From positions 1 through 8,390 of the forward strand of contig QNDJ01000051.1 in assembly GCA_003644825.1 (NCBI GenBank): DNA of 8,390 nt, in the 5' to 3' direction. This DNA comes from B21-G16 sp003644825 [NCBI: Candidatus Zhuqueibacterota bacterium] (GTDB taxonomy: Bacteria > SM23-31 > B21-G16). The notes under the pieces are model-generated. The model had not been told where the DNA came from. It saw nothing but the letters and a program-made list of their open reading frames with translations, and made no database searches. This document shows, in pieces, positions 2,740 to 8,124 of this stretch. The number at the start of each line of letters is the position of its first letter. Positions within the stretch are counted from its first letter, which is position 1. The position numbers and the translations under genes are program-made.

Positions 2740-4815
2740 TTATTTTTTATCTCCATCTTTTGAATAAACTCTTAATATATATCTGGTGGATGGTTTAACT
2801 CTTAAAAAAACACCAGTTGAATCACCCCAGTCAGTAAAAGTACCCCACGCCCAGGATGAATCAACCGTTGCAAATCCCCTTAATTCTTTTGTCGTTACAT
2901 CAAAAAAGTATCCTGATAAGCTATCCTGAATCGAATAGTATGTATACTCCGGGTTGTTCCCGGGGTCAATAACAAAATATATTGAGTCTTTAGACCATAT
3001 ATAGGCAGTATCAATATCCGGAACCTCTGCCCATGTCCATAAAGAATCTATAAATGGTGAGCACCATATACTATCGTTATTTTTAGCCTGAGCCTTAAAA
3101 ATTATCTTTATATTAGGACTGTAATAACTTATGGTAAAAGTATCCCAGGCTGATTTAACAAATTGCTGAAAATAACCAGAAGATTCTCCTCCAGGCTCAA
3201 TGTAAACCGAGAATGTAGAATCATAAAGATAATAGTAAGTATTACTCAGGTTTGAATCCGGTATGAAAGTAATTGTAAGAGTTGTCTCGGATGTATCAAT
3301 AACCGTTATTTCAGGTATATCCGCATAAGTCCAGGCATATTCAACTTCAGATTGACCGGTATTGCCGAAGGAATCGAACGTCCAGAATTTAAAACCTACA
3401 CGTTTGTTGCCGACAGGAACATTTAAGGTATCTCTAATGGTATCAATTCCACCTGTTCCACCAAATAGTATAGTATCGTGTACTAAAAAGCCAGAACTGT
3501 CAACAATCCAGAATCCTTCTCTTGAGAGATTTGAATCAAGAGCCTGTAAAACAGCCTGAGTATCATTGAGAATAAATAGAGTATCATCCCAGGGATCAGC
3601 GAATGGTGGAGTTGTAAACCAGACTTCAAGTTTTGGCCTCAAAGAAGGGTCAGCCGTATATTCAGAATGAGCACCCTGAAAAACATTCTGTGCACCTGAC
3701 TCACTATCGGTATGCCTCGCAATAAATCCGTGGTTAGGATATACCCTGTGCACTATATCAGCAATAAAGGTATCAATCCTGAACGAGTACCACCCGCTCT
3801 GGGTATGATTAAAAGTAATAGTATCAGAATAAGCATACGTCCTCCAGGAACCCCCACTCCATTGTTGACCGGATTGCGCAGAATCCCAGCAAACTTCAGT
3901 TTCAACCCAGGGAGTATCGACCATTGAGAAAAAAACGCTCTCATCGTAATCACCGATAGCTGAATAATAAAGAGATAGTTTTGCAGAATCAATAGTCGCA
4001 TTTGACGGAATACTATCAGTAATGGCAGGAAATTTAATAAGATAGCGGAAGGGTCCCGAGGTACTCCATTTACCGGTAAAATAGTAAAATACGGTCACAG
4101 TGCCCCAGTTAGCAGTTGAATTACTCTGAGATATAACAGCATCTTCAATATCAGATTCTGACCAGATGCAAGTTGAGGGATCAATTTTAACAGGATAAGA
4201 AACACCAGCAGTATCTATCTTAATGTTAATAAAATAAAGCTCATTAAAATGACCGATTTTAAAAGTAATAGGTACAGGGTTACCCTCTGAATCAAAAGCA
4301 GTAAGCCTGGGTATATAGAACACAGGTTCCGTAATTCTATCTTTAAAGAAACGCACAGTATCTTTAAATTTTGCAAATTTAAGATTACTTATAATCTGGA
4401 AAGAAAATTCCAGAGGTCCCCCATCTTTAACGATAATATACTCTTTTAATCCTTTGGAATAGGGCGTAAGAATAATATCGGTACTTTTCCATACATTATA
4501 GAATATAAGTGAATTTTTGACGATTGTTCCAGGACTCAGGGCTGGATTAACCGGTTTATAGACTACATAAAAACCATTTTGTTCGATTTTATAAATAGAA
4601 GGTTCATTAGAATTGAACCTTAAGAGAAAACGATTAGTACGGACATAATGAGTATAATCAGAAATTGAATAAGATGAAATTGATAAATCAGATGTCCTGT
4701 TAAATAATACAGATTTTTTCACTCTGCGATAAATCTCATTCCTTATCTGACATACTGATGTTGAAGGAATCAGTGTTAATATTGAAATTAACAGAAAAAT
4801 TATTCTTTTCAGCAT
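2740..4815 (-). CDS. Secreted DNRLRE-domain protein with fibronectin-III-like repeats
   Basis: This is a large exported protein of 691 residues, likely to bind surfaces or carbohydrate. A signal peptide is clear: MLKR, a hydrophobic core at 5-17, and a signal-peptidase I-like site after SVC (about 22). It is not a good lipobox because V precedes the Cys. Residues 55-213 form the beta domain that often precedes DNRLRE, ending in SYPVKIDPST. Residues about 218-400 are a DNRLRE (CBM96-like) domain with YLIKFPAI, ATIDSAKLSLY, WVETEVCW, GWYSFRID, GFIARHTDS and RPKLEVWF landmarks. The rest is fibronectin-III/Ig-like. Two repeats start WTYADIP (495) and WTWAEVP (593), 98 residues apart, and an earlier one may span 405-494. 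The start overlaps the 98-residue gene by 7 bp and has an AGGTG Shine-Dalgarno. Exported proteins are odd in a phage morphogenesis operon. It could be cargo altering the host surface, or a receptor-binding protein. Confidence 0.82.
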   Translation of the reverse strand: MLKRIIFLLISILTLIPSTSVCQIRNEIYRRVKKSVLFNRTSDLSISSYSISDYTHYVRTNRFLLRFNSNEPSIYKIEQNGFYVVYKPVNPALSPGTIVKNSLIFYNVWKSTDIILTPYSKGLKEYIIVKDGGPLEFSFQIISNLKFAKFKDTVRFFKDRITEPVFYIPRLTAFDSEGNPVPITFKIGHFNELYFINIKIDTAGVSYPVKIDPSTCIWSESDIEDAVISQSNSTANWGTVTVFYYFTGKWSTSGPFRYLIKFPAITDSIPSNATIDSAKLSLYYSAIGDYDESVFFSMVDTPWVETEVCWDSAQSGQQWSGGSWRTYAYSDTITFNHTQSGWYSFRIDTFIADIVHRVYPNHGFIARHTDSESGAQNVFQGAHSEYTADPSLRPKLEVWFTTPPFADPWDDTLFILNDTQAVLQALDSNLSREGFWIVDSSGFLVHDTILFGGTGGIDTIRDTLNVPVGNKRVGFKFWTFDSFGNTGQSEVEYAWTYADIPEITVIDTSETTLTITFIPDSNLSNTYYYLYDSTFSVYIEPGGESSGYFQQFVKSAWDTFTISYYSPNIKIIFKAQAKNNDSIWCSPFIDSLWTWAEVPDIDTAYIWSKDSIYFVIDPGNNPEYTYYSIQDSLSGYFFDVTTKELRGFATVDSSWAWGTFTDWGDSTGVFLRVKPSTRYILRVYSKDGDKK

Positions 4816-5105
4816 TTCTTACACCTCGGATGTGGATGTTTTTTATATGAAATTCCAACTACATATTCTTTTTCTCCATCAGACCAGCCTATGAATTCTC
4901 CTTCAATTTTTATTACTCCAGATTCTGTTATAAACTCATAGTAATGGACAAAATGTTTAAAATTCTTGACGTCTTTATGTATCTTAAAAAAAGGAAGAGC
5001 ATCAATCCAGACCATCCTTATCCTGTCTATATCAAGCTCGTTCCAGCTGTATTTTCCCCCCTCAAAATACAGCCTTCCTTCATCGTCTATTGCATTCCAT
5101 CCCAT
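4809..5105 (-). CDS. Hypothetical 98-residue protein ending in CKKC
   Basis: I do not recognise this small protein. It starts MGWNAIDDEGRLYFEGG, followed by a W-rich first half (W3, W21, W33) and a beta-type second half (HYYEFITESGVIKIEGEFIGWSDG at about 54-77). It ends in a basic HPHPRCKKC tail, whose two cysteines two residues apart could bind metal or be incidental. It has no signal peptide. A Shine-Dalgarno, AAGGGG, precedes ATG 5105, 14 bp after the previous stop. Its end overlaps the start of the secreted DNRLRE gene by 7 bp (the AAATGCTGA junction), so translation of the two is probably coupled. Its compact fold and place suggest a small virion or regulatory component, but nothing in the sequence fixes a role. 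Confidence 0.6.
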   Translation of the reverse strand: MGWNAIDDEGRLYFEGGKYSWNELDIDRIRMVWIDALPFFKIHKDVKNFKHFVHYYEFITESGVIKIEGEFIGWSDGEKEYVVGISYKKHPHPRCKKC

Positions 5106-5119
5106 TTTATGCCCCTTTT

Positions 5120-5638
5120 TTATGCTGAATAATCAAACTTACAACAAAACTTAAATCCACCATTCAACCCTTTATTTGACCCGACTGGTTCACTTTTATT
5201 AATATTTATAGCAAGATAAATATACTGGGAGGTATCATTGTGCCCTGTTCCTGTTATTGCTCCTCCATTCATTCTCTGCAAATTTGATGAAGGTTCACTT
5301 TGAGGGCATATACCAGGATTGCCAGACGATACCTCCCCTACACTCTTATTCTGTGTCCATACACTTGTTATATCTAAATAAAACTCGTTTCCGGTCCCTT
5401 CAAAAATTGAATTCTGAGAAAGAAAAAATTTCATATTACTTATACTGGCATTTCCTTTCAAATCCTTTGCCCTGAACCAGCAGACCCTGGGCCCAGCATT
5501 GGCATTGCTTCCTGTGTTGTTTACTATCCCGAAATCAAGTGGATTATTTATATCTATGATGCTCCCGGCTGTAGTCCTGTCCGCTGGCTCAGATAAACTA
5601 ATATCGTATGTCCTGAACTCTACTTCTGGTATTGCCAT
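5120..5638 (-). CDS. Hypothetical beta-rich structural-type protein
   Basis: I do not recognise a named family. The 172 residues are rich in G, N, S and T and have alternating hydrophobics, as in beta-sandwich phage proteins. Features include RVCWFRAKDLKGNASISNMKFF at about 51-72, an N/G/T-rich middle (105-136), then SQYIYLAININ (137-147) and a final GGFKFCCKFDYSA with paired cysteines. The 'QYIYLAINI...EPVG...GGFKF' ending resembles the last strands of jelly-roll virion proteins, by impression only. There is no signal peptide or membrane segment, so unlike its upstream neighbour it stays cytoplasmic. ATG 5638 has an AGGGA Shine-Dalgarno and follows the previous stop by 8 bp. A minor capsid, decoration or fibre role fits the context but is unproven. 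Confidence 0.6.
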   Translation of the reverse strand: MAIPEVEFRTYDISLSEPADRTTAGSIIDINNPLDFGIVNNTGSNANAGPRVCWFRAKDLKGNASISNMKFFLSQNSIFEGTGNEFYLDITSVWTQNKSVGEVSSGNPGICPQSEPSSNLQRMNGGAITGTGHNDTSQYIYLAININKSEPVGSNKGLNGGFKFCCKFDYSA

Positions 5639-5646
5639 CTTATTCC

Positions 5647-6102
5647 CTATCTATTTGTATATTGAATAACTATCCTTGAGCCACCTCCACCCTTTACCCT
5701 GCTGGTAAATATGGTATCACTGAATTTCAGAGTACAGGGTAAAGCAGGAAAATAAACTGTATCCACAGAAAAATAATATCTATCAACTACTGATGAATCA
5801 ACTAAAACAGAATCATATAAAGAACCCGAATAAAAATAAAATACAGTTGGTGAGTCCAATACGCTCTCTGTCATTATATCAATTCTGTTTATCTGAATAC
5901 CCTGATTAAGGTGGAATATCGCTATGTTTTGATTTGTTACCGAATCCGTATCAAAAACCATTATGAAATTGTTAGCTTTTCCATCAATATAATTTTTAAC
6001 ATTCTTCCACCAGCTTCTGGGTATTTTCGGGTCTTTAACCTGTGAATGCAATTCCCCAAAACTGAATAACAATACAAAAATAACCAGAACTCTCTTCAAC
6101 AT
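5647..6102 (-). CDS. Small secreted protein of unknown function
   Basis: The 151-residue protein has a textbook signal peptide: MLKR, a hydrophobic core VLVIFVLLFSFG, and a cleavage-type site LHS before Q21. The mature part is about 130 residues and beta-rich, with repeated D-S-V/D-T-V units (SLYDSVLVDSSVVDRYYFSVD at about 94-114), a GGGG run (138-141) and a final RIVIQYTNR strand. I recognise no family. It shares its N-terminal MLKR and its Asp/Ser/Val/Tyr-rich style with the 691-residue secreted protein downstream, suggesting a common origin or export partner. It is the first gene after the perfect inverted repeat that follows the capsid gene, and has a strong AAAGGAGAT Shine-Dalgarno. Export is unusual among capsid genes. 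It may be a surface or periplasmic factor such as receptor blocking, but no motif says so. Confidence 0.68.
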   Translation of the reverse strand: MLKRVLVIFVLLFSFGELHSQVKDPKIPRSWWKNVKNYIDGKANNFIMVFDTDSVTNQNIAIFHLNQGIQINRIDIMTESVLDSPTVFYFYSGSLYDSVLVDSSVVDRYYFSVDTVYFPALPCTLKFSDTIFTSRVKGGGGSRIVIQYTNR

Positions 6103-6193: not shown

Positions 6194-7264
6194 TTAAGAT
6201 GCATCCAGAACCCTCGCAGCTCCTTTAAGAAATATGGAATACGCTGTACTTTCAGATATAGCTGTTTTTTCAAACTTCTGTTCAATTATCTTACTGACTT
6301 CTATAAGAAGTCCCTGTTCAATATATTTCTTTACGGCAAATCTTTTATCGAAACAGGCAATCTTTGAATCTGTAGCATTCCCATATTGAACAATCCTTGC
6401 GCCAAGCGGGGTTGGAACTTCACCGGTGAACTGAAGCCTGCTCCCCGCAAGTGGGTCTTTAAATTCCGGCAGACTGAGTATTGCAAGTTTACCGTTTTTA
6501 CTGCATATTATCCTGTTCATCTCAAATTTCTCAAGGTCAGTAAACACACTCAATAAATCCTCATATTTGAGATTATCCAGTCCGCCCGGGGTTTCTATAT
6601 TAATTGTGGGCGCTCCACCTGATACACCATCTCCATCCAGAATCGCATTATATACCGCTCCTATCTTTGCCTCCTGAATCCTGAAACCAATATACCAGAA
6701 TATTGATTTTACCTCAGATAAATCCCTGTTTCTCAACACACGATAAGAAAGGTTAATCTGTCTGCCAAAATCTCTGGCTTTAATTGACTTTGTCCGCTCA
6801 GTTATATTTATTAATGGCATCTCAGCACCTTCAGTTACTTCTCCAAGGTCAGACTCCTCATCCCCTGCCTCTGTAATATATAACGGTGTTACTGAACTAC
6901 CACTCATAGGAACCTCCACTCCACATAAATCATCTGCCTCCGGTTTCATCTTCATTCCGGTTTCAACATTTATCCTTATCCATTCTGGCACAAGCAAACT
7001 TACGGGGCTCTCATAAAAATCCTGTAATGTTATCCTCCTTTTCCCATCAGAACAAATGTTTGCAAGATATAATAGCCTTTCAAAAGCATTCAATGGTGAA
7101 ATTATATTACCATTCTTATCCTTATCTGAAGGGTCTTTCTCCTCAAGTAAGTCAAACAAACTTATCTTTTTGAATTTAGCCTCCTCATAAAGCTCAAGGC
7201 AGTTATTATTTTTCTTATCGGATTTAAGCTTCTCAAATAGTATTTTAGTTCTTTCAAAATCCAT
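6194..7264 (-). CDS. Major capsid protein, HK97-like fold
   Basis: This is probably the shell-forming protein of the phage head; its 356 residues are in the usual range. The pattern is that of HK97-type coat proteins. The N-terminal arm of about 100 residues is charged and helical. Then comes the E-loop/P-domain entry (EGAEMPLINITERTKSIKAR at 145-164, GRQINLSYRVLRNRDL to about 182) and a long spine helix (about 183-208) ending in ILDGDG. An A-domain core follows (LEKFEMNRIICSKNGKLAILSL, LPEFKDPLAGSRL, TPLGARIVQYG). The C-terminal return is IACFDKRFAVKKYIEQGLLIEV and ISESTAYSIFLKGAARVL. The N-terminal arm might act as a built-in delta domain, but no protease gene is visible. The Shine-Dalgarno AGGAGG lies 6 nt before ATG 7264, consistent with high expression. 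The decoration-like gene ends 16 bp upstream. Confidence 0.85.
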   Translation of the reverse strand: MDFERTKILFEKLKSDKKNNNCLELYEEAKFKKISLFDLLEEKDPSDKDKNGNIISPLNAFERLLYLANICSDGKRRITLQDFYESPVSLLVPEWIRINVETGMKMKPEADDLCGVEVPMSGSSVTPLYITEAGDEESDLGEVTEGAEMPLINITERTKSIKARDFGRQINLSYRVLRNRDLSEVKSIFWYIGFRIQEAKIGAVYNAILDGDGVSGGAPTINIETPGGLDNLKYEDLLSVFTDLEKFEMNRIICSKNGKLAILSLPEFKDPLAGSRLQFTGEVPTPLGARIVQYGNATDSKIACFDKRFAVKKYIEQGLLIEVSKIIEQKFEKTAISESTAYSIFLKGAARVLDAS

Positions 7265-7280
7265 CTCTACTCCTCCTATG

Positions 7281-7673
7281 TTATAATATCAAATCACAGG
7301 TCGAAGAATTTGTATCTATTTTTATAACAAATCCTCTTCCTTTTCCAGTATCTATGTTCTTATCAACAGTAAAATTTCCGCTCATCTGAACCCCGTATCC
7401 TTTCTCAGGTGTAGTTCCTGAATACGGAACATCCTTCATTATACCTCTAATTTTTATACCAGCTATCAAACCATCAGACGATACAGACATCAACTCTCCC
7501 AAAAAAATATCACCATCTTCCCCAGGACCAGCTTCAATGTCACCTGTAAGGGCAACCGGTTTTCCGATATCTGATTGTTTGAGTGTCGGAACTCCACCCG
7601 ATTGCTTGACCTTAAATGGAACTATTAGTGTCCCCTGTGAATCCAGTATCACTTCTCTTGGATCAATTCCCAT
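7281..7673 (-). CDS. Putative capsid decoration (cement) protein
   Basis: This small beta-rich protein of 130 residues lies immediately before the capsid gene, the usual place of head decoration or stabilising proteins. The core reads DIGKPVALTGDIEAGPGEDG (35-54), IFLGELMSVSSDGLIAGIKIRG (56-77), GYGVQMSGNFTV (92-103) and GRGFVIKID (112-120). This matches the G-x-x-V-x-L ... D-G-D-x-x-G ... V-x-V-x-G pattern of small beta-barrel cement proteins. It has no signal peptide or membrane segment. Its strong Shine-Dalgarno, AAGGAGG (7680-7686), lies inside the upstream coding region and the genes overlap by 11 bp, so translation is probably coupled. A different small structural role cannot be ruled out. 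Confidence 0.68.
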   Translation of the reverse strand: MGIDPREVILDSQGTLIVPFKVKQSGGVPTLKQSDIGKPVALTGDIEAGPGEDGDIFLGELMSVSSDGLIAGIKIRGIMKDVPYSGTTPEKGYGVQMSGNFTVDKNIDTGKGRGFVIKIDTNSSTCDLIL

Positions 7674-8124
7674 TTTTTACCTCCTTAATTTTATATGGTT
7701 TATAATCAACCCTTTCAGGCTCTTTACCTTCATTCATCAGTTCAATCCTGAATTCGTTATAAAGCTTCTTTTCTATCTCCTTTTTCAGCATAAAAAGTGT
7801 CCCTGTAACTTTCTCTCCTTTAACACCTTCTAAAACTCCATCAGGACAATGCAATATCTTCATCCTGCCAATAAGGTATGTCTTCATCTCATTTTTCAGT
7901 GCCTCATTTTCTGTTCTAAGTTCTTTAATATCCCTTTCTCTTGCTGAAATTTTCTTCTCCAATTTTTGTTTGTATATATTATTACTCTTCTCAATTTTTA
8001 TTATGTCCATTAACTTATTCTTAAGATCATCAAAATCAATTTCTGTAACTCCTTCTTCTCTAAAATTGAGCTTGTCATAAACATACTTCAAAAGTGTTAA
8101 ACTTGATTTTTTCTGCTTTTCCAT
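7663..8124 (-). CDS. Coiled-coil protein, candidate capsid scaffold
   Basis: The 153 residues are highly charged and helical. A probable coiled coil spans about 34-85 (heptad-like LEKKISARERDIKELRTENE at 55-74), followed by a short globular-looking segment (HCPDGVLEGVKGEKVTGTLF, about 92-111) and a second helix (112-131). The C-terminus is basic with K, Y and E. It is the first gene of the operon and stands before the decoration-like and capsid genes, where scaffold proteins usually lie. Coiled-coil, highly charged composition and position are the only evidence; no scaffold family signature is seen, and 153 residues is on the small side. GGAAAAGAG precedes ATG 8124 as Shine-Dalgarno. Its last codons contain the ribosome site of the next gene. 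A regulatory or tail-related coiled-coil protein is possible. Confidence 0.55.
   Translation of the reverse strand: MEKQKKSSLTLLKYVYDKLNFREEGVTEIDFDDLKNKLMDIIKIEKSNNIYKQKLEKKISARERDIKELRTENEALKNEMKTYLIGRMKILHCPDGVLEGVKGEKVTGTLFMLKKEIEKKLYNEFRIELMNEGKEPERVDYKPYKIKEVKNGN

Follow-up and report, generated by a model that had tools for sequence, protein, structure and literature searches.

Background

What is the gene of an exported, adhesin-like protein doing inside a phage head-packaging operon? The locus that raises this question lies on a stretch of 8,390 nucleotides (the window), which is an entire contig (QNDJ01000051.1) of a 493-contig assembly (GCA_003644825.1) from the bacterial phylum SM23-31. 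Tailed-phage particle proteins are expected to remain cytoplasmic, so a conserved Sec-exported adhesin encoded among head genes demands some other step in assembly or at the cell surface, and such a step is directly testable. Our literature search, weighted towards open-access articles and without preprints, gave no paper on an exported adhesin gene in a phage head operon among the matches listed.

To place the element, a comparison with gene transfer agents (GTAs) is required. In RcGTA, BaGTA and BhGTA, classed as viriforms, the head, portal, terminase and lysis-type genes are derived from caudoviricetes, as they are here. Passages of PMC9662315 describe GTA "genomes" as often spread over several loci, and the list of GTA attributes used below comes from the same passages. 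That list also includes a head that cannot hold all of the agent's own genes, the packaging of mostly random host DNA and its delivery to other cells. GTA genes are known mainly in alphaproteobacteria and Brachyspira, with a recent Faecalibacterium example, according to the available portion of PMC12946183.

Results

The window operon

All ten genes of the window lie on the minus strand. The first of the operon seen is a 153-aa gene (7663-8124), coiled-coil-like by eye, with homologues in three other genomes of the phylum (G002, G003 and G005) and in a phage contig described below. It is followed by a head decoration-type virion protein (7281-7673; phrog_4588, "virion structural protein", E 2.5e-13), a homologue of which is found in all 14 non-phylum genomes having the major capsid protein, and by the major capsid protein itself (MCP, 6194-7264; phrog_3922, "major head protein", E 1.5e-39; Pfam PF25209, E 6e-6). 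A structure search of the PDB with the MCP gave nothing at E<=0.01. Next come a second exported protein of 151 aa (5647-6102), with a signal peptide by the rule given below and homologues in G002 and the phage contig, none being seen in G003 or G005; a conserved late protein of 172 aa (5120-5638), with 54-58% identity to its counterparts in G002, G003 and G005 and 45% to that of the phage contig; and a conserved 98-aa gene (4809-5105).

The 691-aa gene (2740-4815, ATG start) overlaps the 98-aa reading frame by 7 bp, and 2 bp lie between its end and the start, at 2737, of a conserved 333-aa gene (1736-2737). Such coupling to phage head-packaging genes had been claimed in an earlier note on this DNA, and it is borne out by the ORF coordinates and by the PHROGs assignments of the neighbours. 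The 333-aa protein bears a weak likeness to tail-tube or Ig-like tail proteins (NF052337, E 6.7e-7, its 29 bits lying below the cut-off of 60) and may be a connector or tail part. The small terminase subunit (TerS, 1315-1683; phrog_24579, E 1e-10) and the large one (TerL, 3-1328; phrog_2, E 1.8e-22) complete the operon as far as it can be read, TerL running off the contig. The portal gene of this assembly lies elsewhere, on contig C335; a PDB search with it at E<=0.01 gave a single, doubtful match (E 0.0031). A further late gene of this kind of operon, seen on the phage contig, encodes a protein of phrog_16951, to which PHROGs assigns no function. Presumably it is the prohead protease.

Export signal and domains of the 691-aa protein

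The 691-aa protein comprises a signal peptide at about residues 1-22, a DNRLRE region at 224-399 and a conserved, probably FN3-like C-terminal part at about 500-691. The signal peptide reads MLKRIIFLLISILTLIPSTSVC and is followed by Q, the cleavage site being placed by eye. Signal-peptide calls were rule-based throughout, the rule being a 12-aa hydrophobic core with a mean of at least 2.0 together with a net positive n-region. Two of the ten window genes are positive, the 691-aa gene and the 151-aa gene, the latter being one that the earlier note does not mention, and shuffles of the whole proteins pass in 21 of 2000 and 68 of 2000 cases, respectively. Among genes of the element identified by HMM as non-exported, none of 115 passes from the first start codon; when later in-frame starts are admitted, 1/115 (within 150 nt) or 3/115 (within 210 nt) do. 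By this rule, the signal peptide claimed in the earlier note is of Sec type. The homologues behave alike, in that the rule holds in 3/3 cases where the start is visible (window, G003 and G005), from the first start in two and, in G005, from one that lies 57 nt further downstream. As far as sequence can tell, then, a lack of export signal, which would have spoken against the earlier reading, is not what is found. The 151-aa gene and its homologues likewise pass in 3/3 cases.

The DNRLRE domain named in the earlier note is confirmed by NCBIfam NF033679 (residues 224-399, E 6.2e-19), with a score of 68.7 bits against a curated cut-off of 34. Pfam gave no match to the protein at E<=1, fn3 and CBM96 included, no fibre or spike family of PHROGs or Pfam was matched at E<=1, and no enzyme domain was found with Pfam or NCBIfam. 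The FN3 repeats that had also been claimed stand in part. The predicted structure of the C-terminal 191 aa (mean pLDDT 65.8, moderate) has 13 PDB matches at E<=0.001, the best being 1qr4 (E 1.7e-4), and all of them are FN3-containing fragments or complexes by title, but the query TM-scores are only 0.25-0.29, so the FN3-like nature of this part is no more than probable. A full-length AlphaFold model built on 5 alignment rows was uninformative (pLDDT 38.3), and a PDB structure search with the N-terminal 424 aa gave nothing at E<=0.01.

On the coding strand the 691-aa gene has a GC skew of 0.03, whereas the values of the remaining nine window genes span 0.21-0.48. Its GC content (0.364) falls inside their range (0.307-0.392).

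Recurrence within the phylum

A search for the 691-aa protein covered 60 genomes at E<=0.001; six of the genomes available represent the phylum. Six of the 60 match: the source genome, four further members of its class and, weakly, G054 (E 3.8e-4 over 57 residues). Homologues are thus present in five of the six phylum genomes, namely the source (G000) and G001, G002, G003 and G005 (contigs JADFON010000132, JAUWXV010000121, JANQEH010000164 and LJUD01000068, respectively), each with one match in an open frame without internal stops. The order exported gene, 333-aa gene, TerS, TerL is kept in all four relatives. Recurrence beside terminase or capsid genes had been set beforehand as a test, and it is seen in these four further genomes and in the IMG/VR phage contig. 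Its return in the same arrangement, both in related genomes and in a virus, marks the gene as truly belonging to the system; on gene order, it is a real, conserved late-operon component of a caudoviricete-derived element.

An assembly chimera or one-off capture was considered and is ruled out by synteny in independent assemblies and the phage contig, which also disposes, as far as sequence can tell, of the concern in the earlier note that the neighbourhood might be unique to one assembly. A weak match to Streptococcus phage YS34-rum (E 4e-4) was also recorded.

A conserved C-terminal part with exchangeable N-terminal modules

Across four homologues the C-terminal ~190 aa show 34-42% identity to the window protein, and the N-terminal parts differ. 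The G005 homologue has a right-handed beta-helix together with DNRLRE, and that of G003 has DNRLRE/CBM96, being above the cut-offs for PF06848 and for CBM96 PF24517, the latter model being satisfied by the G003 copy only. The G002 homologue has neither beta-helix nor DNRLRE at threshold, and the G001 copy is cut off before the N-terminal part. In these alignments the exported protein is modular, with an FN3-like C-terminal part kept and DNRLRE, beta-helix or other modules swapped at the N-terminus. The rate of change is high in the kept part too, about threefold that of portal and TerL: between G005 and G001 its dN is 0.58 (275 codons), against 0.19 for portal, 0.17 for TerL and 0.20 for the 333-aa gene, dS being saturated.

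Contig ends fall inside the exported gene in G001, G002 and G005. In G005, two of them (L024 end and L010 start) have 106 bp of the gene in common, after which they part, one of the two branches leading into a tyrosine-recombinase-like gene; this suggests strain variation or an insertion at the exported gene.

A related phage contig

Searching IMG/VR with an alignment of the C-terminal part of the exported protein found two contigs, which are identical over 9314 bp and were therefore counted as one (IMGVR_UViG_3300028837_001967; L218, L220, L221). This phage contig of 31.3 kb carries homologues of all genes of the window operon except the 98-aa gene, in the series 153-aa gene, decoration protein, MCP, 151-aa exported protein, 172-aa protein, exported FN3-like protein, 333-aa gene, TerS and TerL, followed by portal, the phrog_16951 protein and an Amidase_2 gene. 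Its exported homologue is 40% identical over the C-terminal FN3-like part and, unlike the window protein, has no DNRLRE match; a sub-threshold DNRLRE match lies in a neighbouring exported LamG protein. Three of the 14 late plus-strand ORFs after the phage MCP pass the export rule at the first start, and four do so with later starts, the LamG protein among them; the 153-aa homologue, decoration and MCP genes fail. None of the late genes that were scanned with Pfam and NCBIfam could be identified as a tail gene.

Beyond the Amidase_2 gene there is an opposite-strand, early-looking region ending in a tyrosine-recombinase-like fragment, the last 2 kb being unread. From their motifs we take the ORFs of this region to be helicase-like, excisionase-like and tyrosine-recombinase-like, and the contig is apparently that of a temperate phage. 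The phage branch in the portal tree is long and its position uncertain, and the SM23-31 portals do not come out as a single clade. The full exported protein, scanned against IMG/VR by peptide pattern, gave nothing, the phage being found only by the C-terminal alignment, and a scan with the 333-aa alignment gave no viral relative, though this phage carries one; an empty pattern scan is for that reason not evidence of absence.

Dispersed head genes in other bacterial families

Among 386 genomes searched with the portal alignment, 20 have a match, and 15 of these are not members of SM23-31. The MCP is present in 14 of these 15, the remaining one (G270) having a weak portal match (E 2.6e-9) and no MCP. 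Portal and MCP are on different contigs in six (G012, G014, G148, G162, G281 and G285), 18 kb apart in G160, 28 kb apart in G034 and close together in the remaining genomes; G301 and G359 were left out of the split-loci count because their two contigs may adjoin. Isolated portal genes are located among housekeeping genes, the gene names of these neighbours being our presumption. Tape-measure PF10145 is found in 1/6 phylum genomes and 3/15 relatives, never on portal or MCP contigs.

The arrangement can be followed best in the order of G148, represented by nine genomes in two families and seven genera. Portal is a single intact copy in eight of the nine and MCP a single copy in all nine, and the two are on different contigs in 7/8 genomes having both. 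Host genes flanking the portal are common to five of eight loci, shared both across families (G388 with G391 and G392) and within a family (G148 with G388; G148 with G387), and G285, G386 and G389 show no shared portal-flanking genes in the stretches read. Loci L153, L176, L189-L194 and L202-L207 of this order show a lone portal among housekeeping genes, with the MCP cluster elsewhere in the chromosome.

Distance matrices of portal and MCP are correlated (r=0.907, 23 genomes; none of 5000 permutations as high), at 0.955 within the G148 order and 0.835 elsewhere; the tests required both genes and were made without viral contigs and without G316, whose MCP is broken. The head genes of G391 and G392 are under purifying selection, with dN/dS of 0.05 for portal and 0.04 for MCP (dS 0.67 for both) and 0.12 for the exported protein. 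Since the copies are mostly single, the loci split, the genes co-varying and selection purifying where measured, the head genes of the wider relatives resemble domesticated, GTA-like genes, and the dispersed set of the G148 order is a candidate new GTA family. As compared with known GTAs, the relatives are in other protein families (no known GTA was compared) and other hosts, their packaging and transfer of DNA is putative, and the system carries Sec-exported adhesin or fibre genes.

In the G148 order a signal-peptide-bearing, fibre-like protein is encoded in the capsid cluster in 8/8 regions read, the fibre likeness, as well as the signal peptide of G389, being judged by eye. Seven of the eight pass the strict export rule, G388 only from a later start. 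A Dit tail protein lies in the capsid cluster of G148 and a BppU-N domain protein in that of G285. Four further exported-looking candidates (G299 and G301) divide into two that pass the rule and two that fail, and the exported G387 protein matched no phage record. On contig C2 of G160 (L139-L140), MCP, the 333-aa homologue and TerL are followed by portal about 15 kb and the phrog_16951 gene about 8 kb further; the intervening ORFs are large, on the opposite strand and mostly exported-looking.

Discussion

Prophage or GTA-like locus

Set beside the GTA attributes described in the passages of PMC9662315, the window has caudoviricete particle homologues (MCP, decoration protein, TerS and TerL, with portal on another contig). 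Endogenisation over several loci is seen in the relatives; for SM23-31 only the left flank is visible. Vertical inheritance is supported in the G148 order; in SM23-31 divergence is host-sized and G002 is placed inconsistently.

We consider it about equally probable that the SM23-31 element is a prophage or a GTA-like locus. An ordinary, undomesticated prophage family of the phylum, whose early region with the integrase is missing from fragmented assemblies, has a probability that we would place only a little short of one half. On the phage contig an early region of this kind does lie beyond the amidase gene, and in none of the five SM23-31 operons does the sequence extend past the lysis-type genes. 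Host genes are seen at the left flank in G003, G005 and G002, no contig showing both flanks. G003 and G005 share the NRAMP gene that the operon follows, and no integrase intervenes; in G002 the left neighbours differ, and on the NRAMP contigs of G000 and G001 other genes follow NRAMP and the operon is not there; the differing flanks favour a prophage. The same is true of the disagreement over G002, which MCP and portal place nearer G003/G005 but LeuS and TerL nearer G000, a conflict that argues against strictly vertical descent in the phylum. Against an ordinary prophage are the single copy in five of six phylum genomes, the NRAMP neighbour common to two genera, whose portals (67.7% identity between G003 and G005) have diverged as much as their hosts (LeuS 68.9%), and the relatives in other families, which have their genes at separate loci and, in one order, have passed them on vertically.

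The role of the exported protein

Our best reading, advanced tentatively and with somewhat less than even confidence, is that the 691-aa protein is a late-expressed, Sec-exported adhesin or fibre of a partly domesticated phage lineage. Its synthesis would coincide with that of the particles; as capsids are being filled in the cytoplasm, the protein would pass to the periplasm or the outer surface. Once the cell has lysed, it would serve the system as an exchangeable glycan-binding adhesin, attached by its conserved C-terminal part to the particles set free, or else sitting on producer or kin surfaces, where it would hold or admit particles. Its binding target would be determined by the variable N-terminal module. 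The element itself would be a prophage or, by analogy with the relatives in other families, a vertically kept GTA-like particle locus. The export signal, position, recurrence and modularity of the protein are features at sequence level, from which we infer that it may bind glycans, where it may be located and what role it may have. The earlier note had read it as a glycan-binding product that the phage may display or secrete late in infection, for surface remodelling, superinfection exclusion or the coating of released virions, an interpretation that is supported in part. In the portion of PMC9971899 available, glycan binding is shown only for a CBM96 relative.

Like phage tail spikes and fibres, the exported protein is modular, fast-evolving, adhesin-like and encoded in a late operon; unlike them, it has a signal peptide, keeps its C-terminus instead of its N-terminus and has no sequence match to a known fibre. 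The usual phage fibre has the reverse of this layout of conserved C-terminal and variable N-terminal parts, which counts against reading the protein as a fibre. We are also aware of no way in which a virion assembled in the cytoplasm could acquire a Sec-exported fibre before lysis, and this counts against our best reading. The exported, fibre-like protein in all eight capsid clusters of the G148 order offers an analogy for the window protein, and it shares a cluster with Dit (G148) or BppU-N (G285), a point of likeness to tail fibres and receptor-binding proteins (RBPs). A more general scheme, that a phage and GTA-like lineage across many bacterial groups sends its adhesins or fibres through Sec, its particles filling in the cytoplasm and its RBPs waiting in the periplasm or at the surface to join or capture particles at lysis, is speculative and, in our judgement, rather improbable as a whole.

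A role in surface remodelling is a weaker alternative to the late-expressed adhesin, and one that we regard as rather unlikely. Here the protein would stay on the host surface, masking receptors or altering adhesion in lysogenic conversion or superinfection exclusion, and would never join particles. The low coding-strand GC skew is as in a gene of different origin. In the head operon, the gene occupies the same slot in five phylum genomes and the phage contig, and late expression would come too late for exclusion in a lysogen; moreover, exclusion genes usually have their own promoter. A signal peptide and DNRLRE/CBM96 domains do occur in secreted surface proteins and enzymes, as part of PMC9971899 describes, and the window protein, though above the NCBIfam cut-off for DNRLRE (NF033679), lies inside a phage late operon. 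A recent capture of a host adhesin (capture as such had also been proposed in the earlier note) or an assembly chimera, in either case with no phage function, is extremely improbable, for although the DNRLRE proteins described in that part of PMC9971899 are cellular, the gene has the same place in five of six phylum genomes and the phage contig, with one match per genome and open frames.

What gives the system wider significance is that phage head genes occur in many bacterial families as a dispersed set whose members co-vary; in the only pair open to measurement they are under purifying selection. These would be candidate GTAs outside the groups in which GTA genes are known, as far as the available portion of PMC12946183 lists them.

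In a separate viral contig with a related TerL (L031, a UViG), an 878-aa protein (13174-15808) matches a tail-spike family and has a signal-peptide-like start.
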